From Alentia gelatinosa (lineage: Eukaryota; Annelida; Polychaeta; Phyllodocida; Polynoidae): a stretch of 64,000 nucleotides of DNA. The notes beneath the pieces are model-generated. The model saw only the letters and a program-made list of their open reading frames with translations. It had not been told where the DNA came from and did no database searches. How positions within the stretch are numbered: the first letter of the stretch is position 1; the number at the start of each line of letters is the position of its first letter. Positions 1 to 62,565 of the stretch are shown here, one piece after another. The stretch spans positions 41,065,718-41,129,717 of the forward strand of contig OX465590.1 of the NCBI GenBank assembly GCA_950022655.1, read 5' to 3'. A program made the translations under genes and the position numbers.

Positions 1-3000
1 TGACCCTGATCTCTACTTTTCTCCCTCCACCCCTGTCTGAAATACATGACCCTGACCTCCCCCTTTCTCCCTCCACCCCTGTCTGAAATACATGACCCTG
101 ACCTCTACCTTTCTCCTCGCCACCCCTGTCTGAAATACATGACCCTGACCTCTACTTTTCTCCCTCCACCCCTGTCTGAAATACATGACCCTGACCTCTA
201 TCTTTCTCCTCTCCACCCCTGTCTGAAATACAGGACCCTGCCCTCTACCTTTCTCCCTCCACCCCTGTCTGAAATACATGACCCTGACCTCTACCTTTCT
301 CCCTTCACCCCTGTCCGAAATACATGACCCTGACCTCTACCTTTCTCCCTTCACCCCTGTCTGAAATACATGACCCTGACCTCTACCTTTCTCCCCTGTC
401 TGAAAAACAGGACCCTGACCTCTACCTTTCTCCCTCTACCCCTGTCTGAAATACAGGACCCTGACCTCTACCTTTCTCCTCTCCACCCCTGTCTGAAATA
501 CATGACCCTGACCTCTACCTTTCTCCTCTCCACCCCTGTCTGAAATACATGACCCTGACCTCTCCCTTTCTCCTCTCCACCCCTGTCTGAAATACAGGAC
601 CCTGACCTCTACCTTTCTCCTCTCCACCCCTGTCTGAAATACATGACCCTGACCTCTACCTTTCTCCCTTCACCCCTGTCTGAAATACATGACCCTGACC
701 TCTACCTTTCTCCCTTCACCCCTGTCTGAAATACATGACCCTGACCTCTACCTTTCTCCCCTGTCTGAAAAACAGGACCCTGACCTCTACCTTTCTCCCT
801 TCACCCCTGTCTGAAATACAGGACTCTGACCTCTACCTTTCCCCCTCCACCCCTGTCTGAAATACAGGACCCTGACCTCTCCCTTTCTCCTCTCCACCCC
901 TGTCTGAAATACAGGACCCTGACCTCTACCTTTCTCCCTCCATCCCTGTCTGAAAAACATGACTCTGACCTCTACCTTTCTCCCTCCACCCCTGTCTGAA
1001 ATACATGACCCTGACCTCTCCCTTTCTCCCTCCACCCCTGTCTGAAATACAGGACCCTGACCTCTATCTTTCTCCTCTCCACCCCTGTTTGAAATACAGG
1101 ACCCTGACCTCTCCCTTTCTCCCTCCACCCCTGTCTGAAATACATGACCCTGACCTCTACCTTTCTCCCTTCACCCCTGTCTGAAATACATGACCCTGAC
1201 CTCTACCTTTCTCCCTTCACCCCTGTCTGAAATACATGACCCTGACCTCTACCTTTCTCCCCTGTCTGAAAAACAGGACCCTGACCTCTACCTTTCTCCC
1301 TTCACCCCTGTCTGAAATACAGGACTCTGACCTCTACCTTTCCCCCTCCACCCCTGTCTGAAATACAGGACCCTGACCTCTCCCTTTCTCCTCTCCACCC
1401 CTGTCTGAAATACAGGACCCTGACCTCTACCTTTCTCCCTCCATCCCTGTCTGAAAAACATGACTCTGACCTCTACCTTTCTCCCTCCACCCCTGTCTGA
1501 AATACATGACCCTGACCTCTCCCTTTCTCCCTCCACCCCTGTCTGAAATACAGGACCCTGACCTCTATCTTTCTCCTCTCCACCCCTGTTTGAAATACAG
1601 GACCCTGACCTCTCCCTTTCTCCCTCCACCCCTGTCTGAAATACATGACCCTGACCTCTACCTTTCTCCCTCCACCCCTGTCTGAAATACATGACCCTGA
1701 CCTCTACCTTTCTCCCTCCACCCCTGTCTGAAATACATGACCCTGACCTCTACCTTTCTCCCTCCACCCCTGTCTGAAATACATGACCCTGACCTCTACC
1801 TTTCTCCCTCCACCCCTGTCTGAAAAACATGACCCTGACCTCTACCTTTCTCCCTCCACCCCTGTCTGAAATACAGGACCCTGACCTCTCCCTTTCTCCC
1901 TCCACCCCTGTCTGAAATACATGACCCTGACCTCTCCCTTTCTCCTCTCCACCCCTGTCTGAAATACATGACCCTGACCTCTACCTTTCTCCCTTCACCC
2001 CTGTCTGAAATACATGACCCTGACCTCTACCTTTCTCCCTTCACCCCTGTCTGAAATACATGACCCTGACCTCTACCTTTCTCCCCTGTCTGAAAAACAG
2101 GACCCTGACCTCTACCTTTCTCCCTTCACCCCTGTCTGAAATACAGGACTCTGACCTCTACCTTTCCCCCTCCACCCCTGTCTGAAATACAGGACCCTGA
2201 CCTCTCCCTTTCTCCTCTCCACCCCTGTCTGAAATACAGGACCCTGACCTCTACCTTTCTCCCTCCATCCCTGTCTGGAATACATGACCCTGACCTCTAC
2301 CTTTCTCCTCTCCACCCCTGTCTGAAATACAGGACTCTGACCTCTACCTTTCTCCTCTCCACCCCTGTCTGAAATACAGGACCCTGACCTCTCCCTTTCT
2401 CCCTCCACCCCTGTCTGAAATACAGGACCCTGACCTCTCCCTTTTTCCCTCCACTCCTGTCTGAAATACATGACCCTGACCTCTACCTTTCTCCTCTCCA
2501 CCCCTGTCTGAAATACAGGACCCTGACCTCTACCTTTCTCCCTTCACCCCTGTCTGAAATACAGGACTCTGACCTCTACCTTTCCCCCTCCCCCCCTGTC
2601 TGAAATACAGGACCCTGACCTCTCCCTTTCTCCTCTCCACCCCTGTCTGAAATACAGGACCCTGACCTCTACCTTTCTCCCTCCATCCCTGTCTGAAAAA
2701 CATGACTCTGACCTCTACCTTTCTCCCTCCACCCCTGTCTGAAATACATGACCCTGACCTCTCCCTTTCTCCCTCCACCCCTGTCTGAAATACAGGACCC
2801 TGACCTCTATCTTTCTCCTCTCCACCCCTGTCTGAAATACAGGACCCTGACCTCTCCCTTTCTCCCTCCACCCCTGTCTGAAATACATGACCCTGACCTC
2901 TACCTTTCTCCCTCCACCCCTGTCTGAAATACATGACCCTGACCTCTACCTTTCTCCCTCCACCCCTGTCTGAAATACATGACCCTGACCTCTACCTTTC

Positions 3001-3703
3001 TCCCTCCACCCCTGTCTGAAATACATGACCCAGACCTCTACCTTTCTCCCTCCACCCCTGTCTGAAAAACATGACCCTGACCTCTACCTTTCTCCCTCCA
3101 CCCCTGTCTGAAATACAGGACCCTGACCTCTCCCTTTCTCCCTCCACCCCTGTCTGAAATACATGACCCTGACCTCTCCCTTTCTCCTCTCCACCCCTGT
3201 CTGAAATACATGACCCTGACCTCTCCCTTTCTCCTCTCCACCCCTGTCTGAAATACATGACCCTGACCTCTACCTTTCTCCCTCCACCCCTGTCTGAAAT
3301 ACAGGACCCTGACCTCTACCTTTCTCCTCTCCACCCCTGTCTGAAATACAGGACCCTGACCTCTCCCTTTTCCCCTCCACTCCTGTCTGAAATACATGAC
3401 CCTGACCTCTACCTTTCTCCCTCCACCCCTGTCTGAAATACAGGACCCTGACCTCTCCCTTTCTCCCTCCACCCCTGTCTGAAATACAGGACCCTGACCT
3501 CTCCCTTTTTCCCTCCACTCCTGTCTGAAATACATGACCCTGACCTCTACCTTTCTCCTCTCCACCCCTGTCTGAAATACAGGACCCTGACCTCTCCCTT
3601 TCTCCCTCCACCCCTGTCTGAAATACAGGACCCTGACCTCTCCCTTTTTCCCTCCACTCCTCTCTGAAATACAGGACCCTGACCTCTACCTTTCTCCTCT
3701 CGA
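1..3703. repeat. 46/47-bp minisatellite in the PGD intron upstream of the first visible exon
   Basis: About 80 head-to-tail units run from the window edge almost to the splice acceptor at 3710. The unit is 46 bp, with a 47-bp variant (CTCCTCTCCA for CTCCCTCCA) and a 39-bp variant lacking 7 bp, starting near 371, 736, 1237 and 2061. Each unit holds CTGAC, then a pyrimidine run, then GAAATACATG or GAAATACAGG. The array extends beyond the left edge. Long open frames on both strands are a by-product of a period that is not a multiple of three and of few stop codons; I do not call them genes. The last unit runs straight into the pyrimidine tract of the PGD acceptor. Confidence 0.97.
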
Positions 3704-3710
3704 CCGCTAG

Positions 3711-3962
3711 GTGCCGCTGCTGGAGGCTGGCGACATCATCATAGACGGCGGGAACTCTGAGTTCACGGACAGCACGCGGCGCACGCGGGAGCTGGCGGAG
3801 AAGGGGCTGCTCTTCGTGGGGAGCGGCGTGAGCGGCGGCGAGGACGGCGCGCGCTACGGACCCTCCCTCATGCCGGGCGGGTCGGGCGCCGCCTGGCCCC
3901 ACATACAGGCCATCTTCCAGGGCATCGCCGCCAAGGTGGGCGACGAGCCCTGCTGCGACTGG
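3711..3962 (+). CDS. PGD: 6-phosphogluconate dehydrogenase, internal exon (84 codons)
   Basis: PGD oxidises and decarboxylates 6-phosphogluconate to ribulose 5-phosphate with NADP+ in the cytosolic pentose phosphate pathway. This exon encodes the second half of the NADP-binding domain: it starts [18 protein letters not shown] and contains [18 protein letters not shown], whose Ser-Gly-Gly contacts substrate in the known sheep structure (128-130). It ends EPCCDW. The acceptor is CGCTAG at 3705-3710, the donor GTGAGT at 3963; both flanking introns are phase 0. It corresponds to roughly residues 90-173 of the human enzyme, so the first ~89 residues and their exons lie left of the window. Codons end mostly in G or C, unlike the AT-rich introns. 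The identification is very secure. Confidence 0.97.
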
Positions 3963-4860
3963 GTGAGTGCTTCTCTGCCCGCACGGTAATCATTTACTTA
4001 GGGTTCCCTGGTTATTAGCAGGTGGACGGTTGGTCTTAGTTATGGCTATAGCCTACTGTAGTATACTGCTTGTAGAGTCACTAGATGACCTGACCACATT
4101 TTTGCATTTTACAGCTCACTAAGTACAGATAGGAATATGTCAGGGAGGGGTGATTGTTTTCTGAAGGTTCCCGAGCTTTTTTTCTTTGCTTGGTTTTGTT
4201 TGACTTAAATCACTTCTTTGTAATTGTTTGAATACATAGTGATTAAGTGTAGTTGTAATACCTCAAATTTTCTCTCTACCCGTCAGGGATGGGTGATTGT
4301 GTTCTGAGGGTCCCCAGGTTTGTTTTTTTTTTTGGTTTGCTTTAGGTTTTTTTTTTTTAATTTCGTCAACATACAATCTGCTATTGCAGGTTTTCATTGT
4401 AGTGCTTAGGTGATAGAAGTACATAGTCCCATCCATCTTGAGTGTTGTTTTTCTTTGTTTTGTTTTTATAAGAATTTCTATTGGTTCATTTGACAGTTGA
4501 CATATATATGTTTGTTATATCTTTTATTATCCATCGTATACAAAGACTACATTGAAAATATATGGGGACTCAGTAAACTACGACCCGTTATACAAAACCT
4601 GTCTGATACCATAACTGTGGTATACGGATTCAAATCTTTGATATACGGCCTTCAAATCCATGGTATACTGGAAAATAGTCCCTTGGTGCTATAGAGCAAT
4701 GAAATAGCCCCTGTTGTACTCTTTTGTCCTCTGTTTTATTATGTTCATTCTCCTAACCATATTTGATACATTTTAAAGCATCAATTGCTCAAGATTTTTC
4801 TTATATCATATATAAAAGATTAATTTTTAATGTTCATGTTTCTGTGTTGACTGGTGACAG
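3963..4860 (+). other. PGD intron, 898 bp
   Basis: The intron is AT-rich. It holds a short direct repeat (4139-4203 and 4284-4346, both around GGGTGATTGT) and one copy of the 200-bp TATACC-rich family at about 4523-4725. The acceptor is GGTGACAG at 4853-4860. No coding signal is seen. Confidence 0.85.
4523..4725 (+). repeat. TATACC-rich dispersed repeat, copy 1
   Basis: About 200 bp beginning TTATTATCCATCGTATACAA and carrying several GTATAC motifs in both orientations. Recognisable copies lie at 10153-10352 (minus), 59930-60125 and 60376-60590. No terminal repeats or target duplication could be fixed, so its class is unknown. Confidence 0.75.
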
Positions 4861-4995
4861 GTTGGAGATGAAGGGGCCGGCCACTTTGTGAAGATGGTGC
4901 ACAACGGGATTGAGTATGGCGACATGCAGGTCATCTGTGAGGCGTACCACCTGATGCGGCAGGCGCTCGGCATGACCAACGACGAGATATCAGCG
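4861..4995 (+). CDS. PGD: 6-phosphogluconate dehydrogenase, catalytic-site exon (45 codons)
   Basis: The exon encodes [20 protein letters not shown] and continues through [19 protein letters not shown]. It carries the catalytic centre: by family knowledge (sheep numbering) the Lys of HFVKM is K183, His-Asn of VHNG are 186/187, and Glu and Tyr of IEYG are 190/191. All are present, so the enzyme should be active. This is the junction between the Rossmann domain and the long helical domain. The acceptor is GACAG, the donor GTAAGT at 4996; both sides are phase 0. A MITE is inserted only 15 bases inside the following intron. Confidence 0.97.
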
Positions 4996-6165: not shown

Positions 6166-6888
6166 TTAATACCCACCACTTGATGTTAGATACACGCACC
6201 AAAGAGAGTGTGTATTAATGTGCATCAACTACGCGGAGGATATGTCCATTTGTATAAAAACCACTCAATATTGTGTGTGTTCAAGCATAGTCTTCTATAA
6301 AGATAGGCTTATGTTTGGGTAAACTAGGAAAGACCATAAAAAAATGGTCAGTGCACACTTTTATATCATATCAGTCTCAAACATCTGTAAATCAGTATGT
6401 AATGGTACTTTGACGATTTGCGTTGACTACCGATTTGCGGTGGACGATTTGCAGTGGGATTGGACGTTTTGTGACATTCCTCGGGGCTGTGGTGGACATT
6501 TGGCGGTGCAAAGTGAAGAATGTTTTCCGCAGAACTACCACACATATCTTTACCAAATAGCATTTCTAAGTTAAGAGAAGGAAGACTGACATTGTTTTCT
6601 GTAAATATGTGATTACAGGGCTTTTTCTATAAAAAAAAAAGTGAGTGTAGAGCGGCATTGCAACAAGGCTACAAGTACCGTACAGTAAAAGTGAACTTTT
6701 TAAATTAACATCTTGAATATTGCTAAAACAGTGCCTTATGATGTGTAATGATCACATTCATAGTGACACAATAAAACACATTAGCCTATATAATTAACCT
6801 TTACAATAATTGTGGACGGAAATGTGAAAATATCACAGCAAATCGTCTATGATTCTATGTAGTACAAATAACCTGTTCTTCTATTATA

Positions 6889-8096: not shown

Positions 8097-8371
8097 CACC
8101 ACTGCTCACTGTACTTCAATATTGTTTTAGTATGCCTATTTCACCCCCCCCCCCCCCCCCACACACACACACTTTTAACAAATACATGAATATCTCTGTA
8201 AATATAAAATCTACCTAAAAAAGTCCATTCTAAGATGCACACCTAGCTCTTGTTTATACGATTCTCGATCCACCCTGTTACCCACTCAGTGGTGTCCCTA
8301 GGCTCGCAAGAACCTTAATTCTCCTTCATACCTTTACCAAGGTAAGTGCTCGGATAATTACCTATTCTACA

Positions 8372-8731
8372 TAATTCTGTTTAGTGCTGAAGTGTGTATG
8401 CATGTACATAGTATGCACTTGCCATCCACAAATCCAGTTATCTTTGGAGAGAATGTCACGTTTAGGCAAGCTGGATTAGGTGGTCCCTGGTACTGACTAT
8501 ACGGACATGATTTCCTCTATCCTTGTCGTGTTTTTTGTGATTGTTTTTTCACTTTGTTCTCGATCCAGTTCTATATAATTATGTTTAGTGTTGAAGTATT
8601 AGGTGTATGTACATAGTATGCCGTTCCATAAATCGATTCACCTTGGGAGAGAATGTCACGTTTAGGCAAGCTGGATTGTTACTGACTGTATGGACATGAT
8701 TTCCTCTATCCTTGTCGTGTTTTCTGTGATT
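8372..8731 (+). repeat. Tandem duplication of the acceptor-proximal intron segment
   Basis: 8372-8541 and 8577-8731 are direct copies. Both contain GAGAATGTCACGTTTAGGCA and end GATTTCCTCTATCCTTGTCG plus a T-rich run. Only the second is followed by TCAG and the exon. The first copy continues TTCTCGATCCAG, so it supplies a potential second acceptor about 167 bp upstream. Confidence 0.85.
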
Positions 8732-8734
8732 CAG

Positions 8735-10352: not shown

Positions 10353-10652
10353 ATGTAAAATAAGATAAAAAATAATGAAAAATTTATAATAAAAAAAATG
10401 ATATCATGTTAGAGGTTTGATGTAAGGCCACTTAAAAAAACAAACTTGTTTCTCATCACCGCGCGCGTCAGCTAAAACGTTTTTAGAAGATTTTTTTGAT
10501 TTTTTTTTATAGATGAGATGAAAATTTGATAGAAATCATGAAAAATATGAGTATTTGGTATCAAATTAAAGCTCCTGATGTAAGGAATGCATTTAATGTG
10601 GTTATATGGTTGGCAAAAGTGATGCATAAAGTGGTGTCATGTAACCAATTAT

Positions 10653-11094
10653 GGGGGGCATCCACCAACCATGACAAGACTACGACAATGGCTTTCCGAC
10701 AAGGTCCACGACAGCTCTACGATTGGAAGCCTTGTCGTAGCCTTGTCGTGGTTGGTGGACCCCAGTTCCCGACAAGAGGCTACAACAAGGCCACGACAGG
10801 CTACGACATGAAGCTTGTCGAGGGCCTTCCGACAAGGCTACGACAATATTGAACATGTTCGATTTTTGCTACGACTAGACCTTTGTCGTAGAGTGTTGTG
10901 GATTCCTCGATATCACTGTTGTAGTGTGTCGGAACCATGGGCGCCTTTTTTATGGCAACCAGCAACGTCTACGACACGCCACGACACCGCTGTCCCGACC
11001 CTGCTCTTCTCACGACAAGGCTGCGACAAGGCTACGATTGGAACTTTCATGTCGGCACTTGTCGTAGCCTTGTCGTGGTTGGTGGACGCCCCCC
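10653..11094. mobile_element. CTACGACAAGG-rich element with GGGGGGC(A/G)TCCACCAACCA inverted ends
   Basis: Both ends read GGGGGGC(A/G)TCCACCAACC inward. The interior is a mosaic of CTACGACAAGG and its complement CCTTGTCGTAG, at least fifteen times in both orientations. A partial relative lies at 11105-11230, sharing GAACATGTTCGATTTT and CCTTGTCGGAAGGC. No target duplication was convincing and no protein is encoded. Confidence 0.78.
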
Positions 11095-11104
11095 TTTAGA
11101 GTAA

Positions 11105-11228
11105 AACCCCGCTCCTGGGACACCCCACATGCTCCTGACATGCCATGACACTCCACGACAAAGGTCCAGTTGTAGGAAATATAGAACATGTTCGATTTTG
11201 TCGTAGCCTTGTCGGAAGGCCCCCGACC

Positions 11229-11258
<30 letters not shown>
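11105..11258. mobile_element. Partial relative of the CTACGACAAGG element, then poly-A
   Basis: It shares GAACATGTTCGATTTTGTCG with the neighbouring element in inverse order and ends in a long A run at 11234-11258. One end appears to be missing. Confidence 0.6.
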
Positions 11259-11363: not shown

Positions 11364-11597
11364 GCTCTGTACGCGTCCAAGATCGTGTCCTACGCTCAGG
11401 GCTTCATGTTGATGCGCGAGGTGTCCAAACAGAACAACTGGAAACTCAACTACGGCGGCATCGCGCTCATGTGGCGCGGAGGCTGCATCATCCGCAGCGC
11501 CTTCCTCGGCAACATCAAGGACGCCTTCACCAAGGACCCCAACCTCACCAACCTGCTGCTCGACGACTTCTTCAAGGCCGCTATCCAGAAGGCTCAG
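11364..11597 (+). CDS. PGD: 6-phosphogluconate dehydrogenase, helical-domain exon (78 codons)
   Basis: The exon encodes [20 protein letters not shown], then the highly conserved [20 protein letters not shown], then [15 protein letters not shown]. These all-helical segments form the dimer interface and substrate pocket of the family. The acceptor is TATACAG at 11357-11363, the donor GTATGT at 11598; both junctions are phase 0. Its last ~17 bases (GCTATCCAGAAGGCTCAG) together with the donor recur ten times in the next intron. In all those copies the Ala codon is GCC rather than GCT, a synonymous difference. Confidence 0.97.
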
Positions 11598-12706
11598 GTA
11601 TGTGTCCATCTACTCTTAGAATCTTCTACGAGTAGATTCCCTTTTTTGAAGCTATCCAGAAGGCCCAGGTATGTCCAATACTGAAAACAGTCGAGTTTTT
11701 TTTTCTTTTTTTTCCCATCTACTCTTAGAATCTTCTACAAGTACTGAAAACAATAGAGTTGTTTTTTATTTGTCCATCTACTCGTAAAATCTTCTACGAG
11801 TAGATTCCCTTTTTTGAAGCTATCCAGAAGGCCCAGGTACGTCCAATACTGAAAACAGTCGATTTTTTTTGTTTTTTATTTGTCCATCTACTCATAGAAT
11901 CTGTTACGAGTAGATTCCTTTTTTTGAAGCTATCGAGAAGGCCCAGGTACGTCCAATCCTGAAAACAGTCAAGTTTTTTTTTGTCCATCTACTCATAGAA
12001 TCTGTTACGAGTAGATTCCCTTTTTTGAAGCTATCCAGAAGGCCCAGGTATGTCCAATACTGAAAACAGTCGAGTTTTTTTGGGTTTTTTTTTTCATTTA
12101 CTCTTAGAATCTTCTACAATTAGATTCCCTTTTCTGAAGCTATCCAGAAGGCCCAGGTATGTCCAATACTGAAAACAATAGGTTTTTTGTTTGTATTTTT
12201 GTCCATCTACTCATAGAATCTGTTACGAGTAGATTCCCTTTTTTTAAGCTATCGAGAAGGCCCAGGTATGTCCAATACTGAAAACAATAGAGTTGGTTTT
12301 TTTGTGTCCATCTACTCTTAGAATCTTCTTCGAGTAGATTCCCTTTTTGAAGCTATCCAGAAGGCCCAAGTACGTCCAATACTGAAAACAGTCAAGTTTT
12401 TTTTTGTCCATCTACTCATAGAATCTGTTACGAGTAGATTCCTTTTTGAAGCTATCGAGAAGGCCCAGGTATGTCCAATACTGAAAACAATAGAGTTTTT
12501 TTTTTTTTTTTCCCATCTACTCATAGAATCTTCTACGAGAAGATTCCTTCTTTTGAAGCTATCGAGAAGGCCCAGGTATGTCCAATACTGAAAACAATAG
12601 AGTTGTTTTTTTTGTGTCCATCTACTCATAGAATCTTCTACGAGTAGATTCCCTTTTTTGAAGCTATCCAGAAGGCCCAGGTATGTCCAATACTGAATAT
12701 AAGATT
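11598..12706 (+). repeat. Tandem array of PGD exon end plus 5' splice site, ~105-bp unit
   Basis: Besides the true donor at 11598, the string GCTATC(C/G)AGAAGGCCCAG followed by GTATGT or GTACGT recurs with its GT at 11669, 11837, 11947, 12048, 12157, 12266, 12370 (a base lost, CAAGTACGT), 12469, 12576 and 12681. Spacing is 99-110 bp apart from the first two intervals; one unit (about 11700-11765) lost its exon-like part. Each unit also has AATACTGAAAACA, a T run, CCATCTACTC and the inverted repeat GAATCT...AGATTC. Confidence 0.96.
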
Positions 12707-12775
12707 TTTTTTTTTTTTTTTTAAATTTTCCACTCTCTGGATGTACCCACAAAAAGACCACATGTCCATCTACCC

Positions 12776-12919
12776 AGGGGCTATCCATAAAGTATGTATG
12801 CACTGGAGGGTGGGGGGGGGGGGGGTCGGTAAAAATTTGCGTACAAGATCAGGAGGGGGTTGGGGGGTTCGGTGTAAAACTTCGGAAATTCTGCGTACAA
12901 ACTTTATGGATGGCCCCTC
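12776..12919. mobile_element. 144-bp MITE with AGGGGCTATCCATAAAGT ends
   Basis: The left end AGGGGCTATCCATAAAGTA is mirrored by ACTTTATGGATGGCCCCT. The interior is G-rich with a long G run. A related element is at 47146-47311. Too short for any protein. Confidence 0.85.
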
Positions 12920-12927
12920 ATGGAATC

Positions 12928-12957
12928 CTCTACAAGTAGATTCCATGGCATGCCCAA
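12928..12957. repeat. Short perfect palindrome related to the donor-array hairpin
   Basis: CATGGAATC and GATTCCATG flank CTCTACAAGTA. It looks like an isolated copy of the hairpin of the preceding array, separated from it by the MITE. Confidence 0.7.
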
Positions 12958-13504
12958 ATTCATTATCATGCCTGATGAGCTGTTTTGCAGCGAAACCTTG
13001 TACACTCCCCACAAACAAGGATTACCTTGCGATACGTTGGGCTTTTATTGGTCATATACAGTAAAGATAAATTTGTTGACAGTTGCTATAATTTCATGGT
13101 TTCTGTGATACAGTGGAGTGATTGTTGTCACACTCCCGTGATGTCACAACCATGAGCACACCATGGTTACGTCGACGGCTGGTCTCACTTTGAGGTAGCA
13201 TCTCACTGGAGGCAGACCTTCTTGCCTTGAATTCTAAACACTGAAACACTAGAGAAACACATAATATCCTTATATCTATCATTATATTGTTATATGTATT
13301 TATATCAGGACCCCAGCATTACATAGCTTAAGGACTATCTGTGCTTTCAGTTTTATGACTGATAAAGGCAATTTAGAAGAAAAAAAGTAAAATTGTAGAG
13401 AAAATAAAACCTCAGTGTATTTAATTTTGAAAATTGGTGTTTGATCTCTTTACTTTCTCAAATTTACCTGATTGATTATATACATAGATAAAATGTAAAA
13501 AAAA
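12958..13504 (+). other. Unassigned intron sequence
   Basis: AT-rich intron DNA. It includes a moderately GC segment (13110-13210) around GTGATGTCACAACC and no recognisable gene or repeat. Confidence 0.6.
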
Positions 13505-14456
13505 CACACACACTATTGATACACTACCCATGGGCTGGTCACTGAACTGTGTCCATGTTATTATCTTGTCTGCAACTAAACACTATTGATAGATTATTCC
13601 CATGGACTGGTCACTGGACTGTCTGTTATCTTCTTGTTCGTAATTAAACACTATTGATAGATTGTACCCATGGGCTGGTGACTGAGTTGTCTATGTGATT
13701 GTCTTGTCAGTATTTACATACTATTGATAGATTGTTTACATGTCCTGGTTATTGAACTGTGTATATTATTGTCTGTAGCTAAACACTATTGATACATTGT
13801 TCCCATGGGCTGGTGACTGAGTTGTCTATGTGATTGTCTTGTCAGTATTTACATACTATTGATAGATTGTTCACATGTCCTGGTTATTGAACTGTGTATA
13901 TTATTGTCTGTAGCTAAACACTATTGATACATTGTTCCCATGGGCTGGTGACTGAGTTGTCTATGTGATTGTCTTGTCAGTATTTACATACTATTGATAG
14001 ATTGTTCACATGTCCTGGTTATTGAACTGTGTATATTATTGTCTGTAGCTAAACACTATTGATACATTGTTCCCATGGGCTGGTGACTGAGTTGTCTATG
14101 TGATTGTCTTGTCAGTATTTACATACTATTGATAGATTGTTCACATGTCCTGGTTATTGAACTGTGTATATTATTGTCTGTAGCTAAACACTATTGATAC
14201 ATTGTTCCCATGGGCTGGTCACTGAACTGTCTATGTTATTGTCTTGTCAGTATTTACATACTATTGATAGATTGTACCCATTGGCTGGTTACTGAGCTGT
14301 ATATGTTATTGTCAGTCATTACACATTATCTATAGATTGTACCCATGTCCTGGTGACTGAACTGTCTATGTGATTGACATGTCAGTAACTAAACATTATT
14401 GATAGATGGTACCCATTGGCTCATTACTTAGTTGTCTGTGTGATTGTCGTTGTCAG
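13505..14456 (+). repeat. 68-bp/135-bp tandem array made of the intron's 3' splice-site region
   Basis: Monomers of about 68 bp start CACTATTGATAGATTGT, continue CCCATGGGCTGGTGACTGAG and end TGATTGTCTTGTCAG. Two alternating monomer types form an exact 135-bp period (GATACATTGTTCCC at 13791, 13926, 14061, 14196). TTGTCAG or GTCAG ends monomers at 13710, 13845, 13980, 14115, 14250, 14315 and 14385. The last monomer ends at 14456 as the real acceptor of the next PGD exon. The alternate monomers end CTGTAGC. Confidence 0.95.
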
Positions 14457-14579
14457 GCCGGGTGGCGTAAGGTCGTGTCCACGGGTGTGCTGCTCGGGAT
14501 TCCCACGCCCTGCTTCAGTTCCGCTCTCGCCTTCTACGACGGCTACCGTTCTGAATGGCTGCCCGCCAACCTCATCCAG
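14457..14579 (+). CDS. PGD: 6-phosphogluconate dehydrogenase exon (41 codons)
   Basis: It encodes AGWRKVVSTGVLLGIPTPCF, then SSALAFYDGYRSEWLPANLIQ. This matches the late helical region of animal PGD (WRR..STGV..GIP.PCF). The acceptor is the last unit of the 68-bp array (GTTGTCAG at 14449-14456), the donor GTAAGT at 14580; both junctions are phase 0. The exon is GC-rich and unmutated, in contrast to the repeat before it. Confidence 0.97.
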
Positions 14580-14750: not shown

Positions 14751-15846
14751 GCACATTAAGGGCAAAAAGTGTTTGCTAGTTCCGCCATCATCCGCCAGGA
14801 AATTGTAAGATAGCGCCACTGTAGTCGGGGGACAACCATTATTATCTACTGTCATAATCTAAAGATAATCATGAGACGAGGCTAAAAATCTTTTATGGCA
14901 AACAAAAAAAAATCTTTTATTAATAAATTATGAAGGAAAATATTCCCACTAATTCGGCGATGGGCAGGATCCGGCTTTTAAGTAACAAATTGATTAAAAT
15001 ACATTTATCTACCAACTTGTTTTGGACTGTTTCAGTCCTAGATCAGGGTGTCATATTGTTAACAAAATCCATTGATAACAGGATCAGCCACCTGGTGTTT
15101 TGTTTTGTGTTGGGGGGGGGGGGGGGGGGGGGCAAGATGGCCGTCTCCATAACACAATAGCTATGTGCCTGACTCTGTTTTTCGTCAAAAATATAAAGTT
15201 CTTCATCTCATACGTTGTTAACTGTGTTTAACACATTTAAGGGCATAGACTGATTGCCAGTTCTGCCATCATCTACCAGGAAATTGTAAGATAATGCCAC
15301 TGTAGTCGGGGGACAACCACTATTATCTTCTGTCATAATCTAAAGATAATTTTTTTTTTTTTTTATGAGCACCTTGTGAACCGCTATGGGAACTTCACAC
15401 AGCAAGGAATTCCCCCATAACATCAAAACCTGCTGGGAAAACACCCCCCCGGAACCGTGATGTCACACTGTCAACAACTGGCGTAACCATCCGCTACGTT
15501 CTGTTGTCAACGTCGCCTTGGTAGCGAGTGGTCTGACTATAAATAACGCGAGCAGACGACTGCTCCGTCACTTTGATGCGGTAGCTCGTAGAGTGATAAC
15601 CTTAGCCACGTTTTCAGAAATAATCTAAAGATAATCATGAAACGAGGCTAAAATCATTTTATGGCAAACCAAAAATTTTGTTGTTGTTGATAACATCCAT
15701 TGATAACAGGACCCGCCACCTGGTGTTTTGTTTTGTGTTGGGGGGCAAGATGGGCGCCTCCATAACACAATAGCTATGTGCCTAACTCTGTTTTTCATCA
15801 AAAACATAAAGTTCTTCACCTCATACGTTTTTAACTGTGTTTACAG
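14751..15846 (+). repeat. Direct duplication filling the last PGD intron
   Basis: 14751-15232 and 15231-15846 are direct copies, the second interrupted by a 269-bp insertion. Shared blocks are AGGAAATTGTAAGATA, TGTAGTCGGGGGACAACCA, GAGGCTAAAA, CCTGGTGTTTTGTTTTGTGT and ACACAATAGCTATGTGCCT. The copy adjoining the exon ends in GTTTACAG; the earlier copy has GTTTAACAC, so its acceptor AG is lost. Parts of this unit also occur dispersed at 20130-20230 and, in reverse, 47399-47665. Confidence 0.88.
15351..15619 (-). mobile_element. Retroposon-like insertion with 16-bp target duplication
   Basis: The insert begins with a T run on the + strand (a poly-A tail on the minus strand). It is bounded by ATAATCTAAAGATAAT at 15335-15350 and again at 15620-15635. 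The empty site is seen in the sister copy at 14853-14868. Length and tail fit a SINE-like retroposon read on the minus strand; its 5' head is not a clear tRNA or other RNA. Confidence 0.85.
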
Positions 15847-59429: not shown

Positions 59430-59735
59430 TAAGTGGCTGCTGTTAGTAGTATACCACGAGCGGCATTACCCCCAGGACCATGGGCCTCCGCTCGGGGACG
59501 ACATAGATATCAGGTCGCCATGGTAACCAGGCAGACCCCCCTCCCCCCGCACGCCTCACTCATCCTACCCCGTCACGTGTCGAGTGGGGGGCGCGTATTT
59601 CCTGTCGCCACCGCTCTAGCTATTGCCTGTCGCCATGGGAACGCTTCAGTTATGTTGACTACGTAACGACTGTGACGTCATAGCGCCAGTGGCTGAGAAA
59701 TCAGCGGACGGCGAGTCGGTCGGTGGTCCGTTCGT
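59430..59735. promoter_or_regulatory. GC-rich segment with CRE, E-box and X-box-like motifs (candidate)
   Basis: GTCGCCATGGTAACC near 59513, CACGTG at 59575 and TGACGTCA at 59673-59680 within a GC-rich stretch. It may be an intronic promoter or enhancer of the kinesin gene; there is no expression evidence. Confidence 0.35.
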
Positions 59736-60980
59736 TGTGACGATCTCTGTGACCCTTTTGTGTACTACTAACTAGCTCGTTAAATTGACCATGTGAGTGT
59801 GCCTGTTGGAGCTACAGGAAACCCATCAGGTTCACCGGTAACCCGACACTAATTGGCGGTAACGAGGATGTGTGGTACTGTAGCTGTTCTATAAAGACAG
59901 TCTCTCTTTTCTGCACATTAATTATCCATCGTATACAAAGACCCTATTGATAATGTATGGGGACTCAGTAAACCACGACCTATTATATAAAACCTGTCAG
60001 ATACCATAACTCTGGTATACAGATTCAAATCTGTAGTATACAGCCTCAAAGCCATGGTATACAGGAAAATAGTTCCTCTATACCATAAAGGAAAGAAATA
60101 GTCCCTAATGTTATACCCTTTAATATGACAATTATCTGGTTAAATTTATCGGATACAATGGGTAATCGTGAATCTGTTGGTTGTGATGATTTCTATGACC
60201 CCTTTTGTGTACTACTAACTAGCTAGTTAATTGACCATGTGAGTGTGCCTGTTGGAAATACCAGAAACCCATCAGGTTCACCGGTAACCTGACACTAATT
60301 GGCGGTAACGAGGATGTTTGGTACTGTAGCTGTTCTATAAAGACGGTCCCTTTGTGTAGAAAGTCAGTTTTAACACATTTATTATCCATGGTATGAAAAG
60401 ACCCTATTGGTAATGTATGGGGACTCAGTAAACCATATCCCATTATGTAAAACTTGTCAGATACCACAACTGGGGTATACGGATTCAAATCTGTGGTATA
60501 CTGCCTCAAAGCCATGATATACGGGAAAATAGTCCCTTTGTGCTATATAGCAAAGAAATAGTCCTCAATGTTATACCCTTTAATATGACAATTACCGGGC
60601 TTAATTTATTGGATTTGATGGATAATCGTGAATCTCTTGGTTGTGATGATCTTTGTGAGCCCTTCGTGTACTATTCGAGGGTGGTTGTGGCCCCTAAGAT
60701 TCGAGGTCAACTCTGGACCGTAGAACTGTCCCACGGCGCTATAAATATCATGTAAAGAGGTCAGGGTCAAGGTCGGGGTTTGCTGTGAATGCAGTCATTG
60801 GCTACTCGGTCTACTCTATTCCTTATATGGACTTAGTGTAATGGAACAACTCCATGCTGATTCACTAGCTTGTTAATTGACCATGTGAGTGTGCCTGTTG
60901 GAGCTACAGGGAACTCATCAGGTTCACCAGTAACCTGACACTAATTGGAGATCATGGAAGTAGGTTGTGTGGTGATGTAG
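59715..60980 (+). repeat. Three tandem copies of a ~450-bp block with nested repeats
   Basis: TTGTGATGAT-type starts at 59735, 60178 and 60638, each followed by ACCATGTGAGTGTGCCTGTT, CATCAGGTTCACCGGTAAC and CTGTTCTATAAA. The first two copies carry the TATACC family (59930-60125; 60376-60590); the third instead has the 190-bp repeat of 6889-7078 (60676-60863). Confidence 0.88.
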
Positions 60981-61484: not shown

Positions 61485-62565
61485 AGCAGAAGTTTCAGGC
61501 CTTATACTAGAGCTTCAGGCTATATGCTAGAGCTTCAGGCTTTATTCTAAGGCTTCAGGCTTTAGGCTAGAGCATTAGGCTTTTTGTTAGAACTTAAGGC
61601 TTTTTGCTAGAGCCTCAAGCTTGATGCCAGTGCTTCAGGCTTGATGTCAGAGCTTCAGGCTATAAGCTAGAGCTTCAGGCTATAAGCCAGAGCTTCAGGC
61701 TATAAGCTAGAGCTTCAGGCTTGATGCTAGAGCTTCAGGCTATATGCTAGAGCTTCAGGCTTTATCCTAAGGCTTCCGGCTAGAGCTTTAGGCTTTATGT
61801 TAGAACTTAAGGCTTTTTGCTAGAGCCTCAAGCTTGATGCCAGAGCTTCAGGCTTGATGCCAGAGCTTCAGGCTATATGCAAGAGCTTCAGGCTATATAC
61901 TAGAGCTTCAGGCTTTATCCTAAGGCTTCAGGCTTTATGTTAGAACTTCAGGCCTGATGCTAGAGCTTCAGGCCTGATGCTAGAGCTTCAGGCCTGATGC
62001 TAGAGCTTCAGGCTTGATGCTAGAGCTTCAGGCTTGATGCTAGGACTTCAGGCTTTATGCTAGAGGTTCAGGCTTGATGCTAGAGCTCCAGTCCTTATTC
62101 TAGAGCTTCAGGCTATATGCTTGAGCTTCAGGCTATATACTAGAGCTTCAGGCTTGATGCTAGAGCTTCAGGCTTTAGGCTAGAGCTTTAGGCTTTATGC
62201 ATGAGCCTCAGGCTTGATGCTAGTGCTTCAGGATTTACGCTAGAGCTTTGGGCTTGATGCTAGAGTTTTGGGCTTGATGCTAGAGCTTCAGGATTTACGC
62301 TAGAGCTTTGGGCTTGATGTTAGAGCTTCAGGCTTGATGCTAGAGCTTCAGGCCTTTTGCTAGAACCTCATGCTTTATGATAGAGCTTCAGGCTTTATGA
62401 TAGAGGTTGAGGCTTGAGGCCAGAGCTTCAGGCTTGATGCCAGAGCTCCAGTTTTTATGCTAGAGCTTCAGGCTTTATCCTAAGGCTTCAGGCTTGATGC
62501 TAGAGCTTCAGTCTTGATGCTAGAGCTTTGGGCTTGATGCTAGAGCTTCAGGTTGAGAACATGAG
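61485..62565 (+). repeat. 20-bp minisatellite AGAGCTTCAGGCTTGATGCT, ~54 units
   Basis: Head-to-tail 20-bp units with frequent variants (TTTATCCTA, TATATGCTA, CCTGATGCT). A larger internal duplication of about 220-240 bp is visible (61521-61650 against 61741-61865). Every 60 bases brings a TAG in each + frame, so it is not coding. Confidence 0.96.

Follow-up and report, generated by a model that had tools for sequence, protein, structure and literature searches.

Tandem copies of splice sites at both ends of a PGD intron in the polynoid annelid Alentia gelatinosa

One intron of the 6-phosphogluconate dehydrogenase (PGD) gene of Alentia gelatinosa carries a minisatellite at each of its ends. 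The array at the 5' end repeats the last bases of the exon together with the donor site, and the array at the 3' end repeats the end of the intron together with the acceptor. The intron thus contains eleven donors and twelve acceptors of mostly similar strength, and only the outermost pair keeps the reading frame. We consider it probable that this is a pair of minisatellites, the first of the "mirage" type described in amphioxus, that the outer sites are used and that the decoys are mostly passive.

The PGD intron and its two arrays

The window (the whole stretch of DNA analysed, 64,000 nucleotides) contains PGD exons, and three C-terminal ones, when joined, match human PGD (4gwg, 1.4e-78). 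The intron considered here runs from 11598 to 14456; the exon before it ends in ...GCTATCCAGAAGGCTCAG^GTATGT, with the junction at 11597/11598 (^ marks a splice junction).

11364..11597, forward strand: PGD exon (Pfam 6PGD PF00393, 9.3e-31; 4gwg match), source of the copied 3' end
11598..11603, forward strand: authentic donor CAG^GTATGT, placed by the exon/protein boundary, matrix score 9.8
14455..14456, forward strand: authentic acceptor AG, placed by the protein boundary, score 5.3
14457..14579, forward strand: following PGD exon, from the 4gwg alignment

The assembly searched has 1,234,393,884 bases in 101 contigs, slightly smaller than the published one (1,237.5 Mb span, 192 scaffolds; PMC10980856). 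A profile search of it with PF00393 returned at least four matches (counts are lower bounds), all within this PGD gene. PGD looks single-copy in this genome, and correct splicing is therefore required. In a protein search, in which the 7,999 candidates with the most shared words were scored and 120 listed, the best full-length identity among the listed matches was 81%, so there is no close relative among them. In a tree of 42 rows chosen from these 120, the host sequence grouped with no named phylum.

The features of the intron are the following.

11598..11647, forward strand: first spacer, shortened, without the CCAATACTG...T-run part of the unit (alignment)
11648..12718, forward strand: donor array of ten units of about 105 bp, each of exon tail, donor and spacer, the last unit truncated (repeat finding, alignment, genome matches)
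11679..11802, forward strand: 59-bp partial duplication nested within the first unit (TRF, alignment)
12370..12375, forward strand: the sole weakened decoy donor, CAA^GTACGT (score 6.4, others 9.6-9.8)
12777..12917, strand not assigned: small element with imperfect inverted ends (GGGGCTATCCATAAAGT...), read by eye
13510..14456, forward strand: acceptor array with 14 units, each about 67 bp long, the lengths mostly alternating between 65 and 70 (TRF, unit alignment, scores)

All ten units of the donor array contain the last 17 nt of the PGD exon plus the donor, as well as a variable T run and spacer. The extra copies, CTATC[C/G]AGAAGGCCCA[G/A]^GTA[T/C]GT, start at 11652, 11820, 11930, 12031, 12140, 12249, 12353, 12452, 12559 and 12664, which confirms an earlier note made on this DNA that had described ten decoy 5' splice sites with the end of the exon attached. 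The GCC that it had reported in place of the GCT of the exon is present in 10/10 copies. The similarity is above chance: the copies differ from the 18-nt exon tail at one or two positions, whereas the best match in a single-base shuffle of the intron had five to eight mismatches (200 shuffles).

The units are mosaics of a few variants (alignment columns 10 and 25 occur in all four combinations), as expected from exchange between units or from recurrent change. The edge units u0 (first) and u10 (last) are truncated and have different spacers. A whole-genome search with the unit consensus, which can miss copies, returned 12 matches, all in this array. By eye, the small element at 12777-12917 sits in an apparent eleventh, older spacer copy (12764-12777 plus 12917-12950). 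Predicted RNA folding of 81 nt (12640-12720) was not unusually stable (z +1.71; 196 of 200 shuffles folded as well or better). Upstream of the exon, at 10640-11230, CGACAAGGCTACGACAAG-type sequence is repeated on both strands (by eye) and is perhaps a mobile-element remnant.

In the acceptor array the unit contains no exon sequence. An AG is found at the matching place in 12 of the 14 units, the last being the true acceptor and the other 11 lying in the 13 units upstream of it. The earlier picture of eleven donors facing a single acceptor therefore does not hold.

An origin of the decoy donors by tandem duplication across the exon-intron junction fits the sequence. Such a duplication would have carried along the donor and the 17 nt of exon before it, and exchange between units would then have multiplied and mixed the copies. 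A separate array would have copied the last ~67 nt of the intron, including the acceptor. The exon-derived part had been thought to be kept while the spacers vary. However, exon-plus-donor columns are not significantly better kept than the rest of the unit outside T runs (4/27 and 17/58 variable, Fisher p=0.18, in a small test on nine full units), and the two best-kept stretches are both intronic, GATTCC (0/6 columns variable) and CCAATACTGAAAACA (1/15). Selection on the exon-derived part is thus unsupported, and the donor array looks like ordinary minisatellite turnover.

Tandem arrays are prone to assembly errors, and the donor array might be an artefact of this kind. However, the units differ from each other, one of them holds a nested duplication, and the donor array is only about 1.1 kb long. 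The assembly was made from PacBio data with a QV of 59.4 (PMC10980856), which also counts against an artefact, and we regard this explanation as scarcely credible. An alternate haplotype (GCA_950023025.1) and RNA-seq data (ERR11242532) are available (PMC10980856).

Site strength, reading frame and choice of sites

Donors and acceptors were scored with a simple matrix built from textbook frequencies. The true donor (9.8) ties with seven decoys, two others score 9.6, and 12370 scores 6.4; nine of the ten decoys are thus within 0.2 bits of the true site. That all decoy donors are well kept, as had been proposed, is correct for these nine (CAG^GTAYGT) and fails for the clearly weaker CAA^GT at 12370. 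The scoring, which had been suggested as a way to rank the donors, produced no useful ranking, so the choice must rest on context, for example on exon definition. At the other end, the true acceptor scores 5.3, eight decoys 4.5, and the decoys at 14250, 14315 and 14385 score 6.4, 3.0 and less than 2, respectively. Further scoring AGs occur inside the acceptor units, outside the count of twelve: five at 3.8, 14335 at 5.7 and 14431 at 4.1. Since nine decoy donors and the AGs at 14250 and 14335 match or exceed the authentic sites (the donors to within 0.2 bits), full passivity of the decoys is not obvious.

All 132 pairings of the 11 donors with the 12 acceptors were enumerated. The frame is kept only by 11598 to 14456; in the other 131 it is broken or a stop is met. 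The claim that the first donor has to be chosen, or stops arise, is borne out to this extent, but the requirement is not one-sided, as the acceptor has to be chosen from an array as well. The true sites are the outermost ones and adjoin the exons. The spliceosome would pick them because only they join a complete exon (exon definition), and the decoys would be mostly passive and carried along.

One alternative is regulated unproductive splicing, with use of the inner sites leading to frameshifts and stops and the arrays tuning the PGD level through decay of the wrong mRNAs. The outcome of the 131 pairings and the scores of most decoys, similar to those of true sites, agree with such a role. However, it would sit poorly with the non-significant conservation signal (p=0.18) and the ordinary appearance of the repeat turnover, and we consider it improbable.

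Another possibility is serial (recursive) splicing, in which the units are removed singly and the array is a ladder of zero-length exons. Recursive, or ratchet, sites are AG^GT junctions that regenerate a donor and are spaced by kilobases. Every unit junction here is also AG^GT, so removal of one unit would re-create the same donor and leave the mRNA unchanged. The junction is CAG^GTAYGT in nine of ten units, and recursive use is possible because all units but one have CAG^GT; the hypothetical unit introns would be 71-168 nt long, and the product would be the normal mRNA by construction. However, the spacing is about 105 nt and the junctions make poor acceptors: scored as such, the ten AG^GT sites reach -1.6 or -3.0 (12370: -10.0), whereas the seven authentic PGD acceptors of the window score 4.5 to 10.0. 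The T run upstream of each junction is separated from it by about 20 nt in which other AGs occur. A strong acceptor directly upstream of the donor, which defines a recursive splice site, is absent from all ten units (-1.6 or lower in each). Serial splicing is accordingly a poor candidate.

Equally doubtful is the use of the units as microexons. CCAG^ and ^GTATGT flank a 9-nt in-frame AAGGCCCAG (Lys-Ala-Gln), of which differing numbers might enter the mRNA. The nonamer encodes KAQ in all ten units, the CCAG acceptor scores 7.4-7.9 in six of them, above the authentic 14456 (5.3), and in five of these six the donor is at 9.6-9.8. On the other hand, the remaining four units have CGAG (1.9-3.8), one CCAG unit has the weakened donor, and a run of KAQ would extend a conserved stretch of the enzyme. 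A 9-nt exon usually requires special enhancers.

Comparison with known systems

The passive reading, with the outer sites used, is supported by a precedent. In amphioxus, tandem duplications of exon-intron boundaries, named mirages, are described in Adh3, globins (BflGb6 and BflGb9), troponin C and PGBD5, some of them with length instability; for the Adh3, globin and troponin C genes, splicing is reported to proceed normally despite this architecture (PMC3087553, PMC3902484).

The PGD intron arrays belong to the same kind of structure, here found outside the phylum of amphioxus and at both ends of one intron. Mirage units span the boundary and include exon sequence, as in all ten units of the donor array (17 exon nt plus donor). 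The unit of the acceptor array has no exon sequence, and its likeness is thus partial. Splice signals occur in many but not all units, and the same is seen here: 9/10 decoy donors score 9.6-9.8, ten decoy AGs score 3.0-6.4 and one less than 2. There are differences too. The printed cases that were found are all cephalochordate, whereas the host here is an annelid; therefore we class the arrays as the same kind of structure and not as amphioxus mirages, and common descent is not claimed. An amphioxus origin of the DNA was rejected on COX1, which in this genome is 97% identical to a Phyllodocida entry and 91% to Branchipolynoe. Unlike the amphioxus cases, the arrays occupy both ends of one intron, most acceptor repeats stop at or beside the AG without exon sequence, and recurrence in other genes was counted. 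No annelid mirage-like case was among the matches listed by a search of the open-access literature, which is no proof of absence in print.

In the Rogers model, introns are gained via tandem duplication of AG^GT sites. The donor units likewise repeat AG^GT, and each could in principle be an intron; the difference is that the copies here lie inside an existing intron, and a new intron is not shown. The model is treated in the discussion of PMC3087553.

Repeat ends at acceptors of PGD and CCT genes

Repeats also adjoin other acceptors of the PGD gene.

1..3705, forward strand: 46-bp array of about 80 copies, reaching acceptor 3710 of another PGD exon (TRF; edge test)
8365..8731, forward strand: two-copy duplication (8365-8542 and 8569-8731, 81%) ending 3 nt before the intron end at 8734 (self-BLAST)
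15056..15843, forward strand: two-copy duplication (15056-15230 and 15684-15843, 85%) ending 3 nt before the intron end at 15846 (self-BLAST)

The first of these contains 34 ATACAGGA and 37 ATACATGA; the exon that follows it (3711-3962) matches PF03446 (5.6e-23). Repeats were taken as self-BLAST matches with E up to 1e-4 within 1500 bp, a single threshold set. By this measure four of the seven PGD acceptors of the window (3710, 8734, 14456, 15846) have the end of a local direct repeat no more than 4 bp away, and one of the six donors (11598) has the start of one at such a distance. At 3710, 8734 and 15846 the last 2-3 nt before the exon are outside the repeat match. Elsewhere in the window, a 20-bp x 53 array (61494-62552) and a 460-bp two-copy repeat (59730-60673) are not tied to an identified exon.

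Upstream of the window, locus L009 contains the first part of the PGD NAD-binding domain (PF03446, 1.1e-05), in an exon that shares 23 of 24 residues with sea urchin PGD. A 42-bp unit in about 10 copies (4455-4882) ends there at acceptor 4873 and includes about 9 nt of the exon start. Eight decoy acceptors in this array score 9.2-12.2, four of them above the true one (11.9), and three more AGs score 4.1-7.2.

For a test outside PGD, the gene on which the 4-bp rule had been chosen, the rule was carried over to genes of the CCT/TCP-1 family; the PGD P value is therefore post hoc and that for CCT is not, apart from the L032 correction described below. The genome has at least 53 matches to PF00118. 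Nine multi-exon clusters were judged by eye and seven genes used, with 34 of 35 exon matches (one with internal stops was dropped). Splice sites were chosen with a matrix of textbook frequencies, two donors with negative scores being dropped and 32 kept. Some of the acceptors chosen have low scores (down to 2.1) and may be misplaced, and a number of exon ends could be ends of genes. An uninterrupted Cpn60-family match covering nearly the whole profile lies on an unplaced contig (C46, 6370-7875) and is possibly bacterial.

Repeats were found at three CCT acceptors.

L036, 4457-5653: about 400 bp x 3, units ending TTCAG, at acceptor 5653, offset 0
L032, 6577-6706, reverse strand: 64 bp x 2, CACAG, at acceptor 6706, offset 0
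L033, 759-870: 36 bp x 3, TTTTAAAG, at acceptor 867, offset +3

The L032 acceptor was corrected from 6642 to 6706 after its repeat had been seen; with 6706 the joined exons read through as GGGAVEMALAH^ALNEKAKS, and 6642 gives stops in that frame. The upstream L032 copy ends in a decoy ACACAG. In L033 each 36-bp unit ends in TTTTTAAAG, the last at the true acceptor. By microhomology, judged by eye, the left borders of these arrays share at most two bases in two of the three cases and none in the third. In four of the seven genes the same self-BLAST measure found no local repeat at all.

With one acceptor corrected post hoc, repeats end within 4 bp of 3/34 CCT acceptors, against an expectation of 0.079 from circularly shifted repeats (P=0.0002). 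None of the 32 donors has a repeat edge within 4 bp. For PGD and CCT pooled, 7/41 acceptors are involved against 0.16 expected, a count reached in 0/20,000 shifts; for donors the figures are 1/38 and 0.11 (P=0.11). Compared directly, acceptors and donors differ only weakly, with a Fisher p of 0.058 for 7/41 and 1/38, or 0.031 if the exon-spanning L009 array is included (8/42 and 1/38).

This coincidence argues against the explanation of the PGD arrays preferred above, as random tandem duplication does not predict it: its repeats would end anywhere. Selection against decoys would leave repeats ending before the AG. Four exons have a GC content of 0.56-0.60 and their introns 0.29-0.40; stalling of replication at such a step is disfavoured as the cause, as it should act at donors as well as at acceptors, though the contrast between the two is weak. 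No ordinary explanation for repeats ending at acceptors was found. In a bolder reading, which we consider improbable, a process coupled to transcription or splicing in this genome would favour tandem duplications that extend precisely to the 3' splice site. An example of a route would be repair or template switching with the RNA of the excised intron, which terminates in the acceptor AG. If so, arrays such as those of PGD would be the visible trail of this process, and the introns of scale worms would lengthen at their 3' ends. The coincidence can be tested genome-wide with public data.

With 11 donors and 12 acceptors, most of them comparable in strength, in what seems to be the only PGD gene of the worm, the intron offers a natural setting for testing how the outer pair is chosen by the spliceosome. 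Mirage-like boundary minisatellites are now seen beyond lancelets, in annelids, and may be a general way in which introns change.
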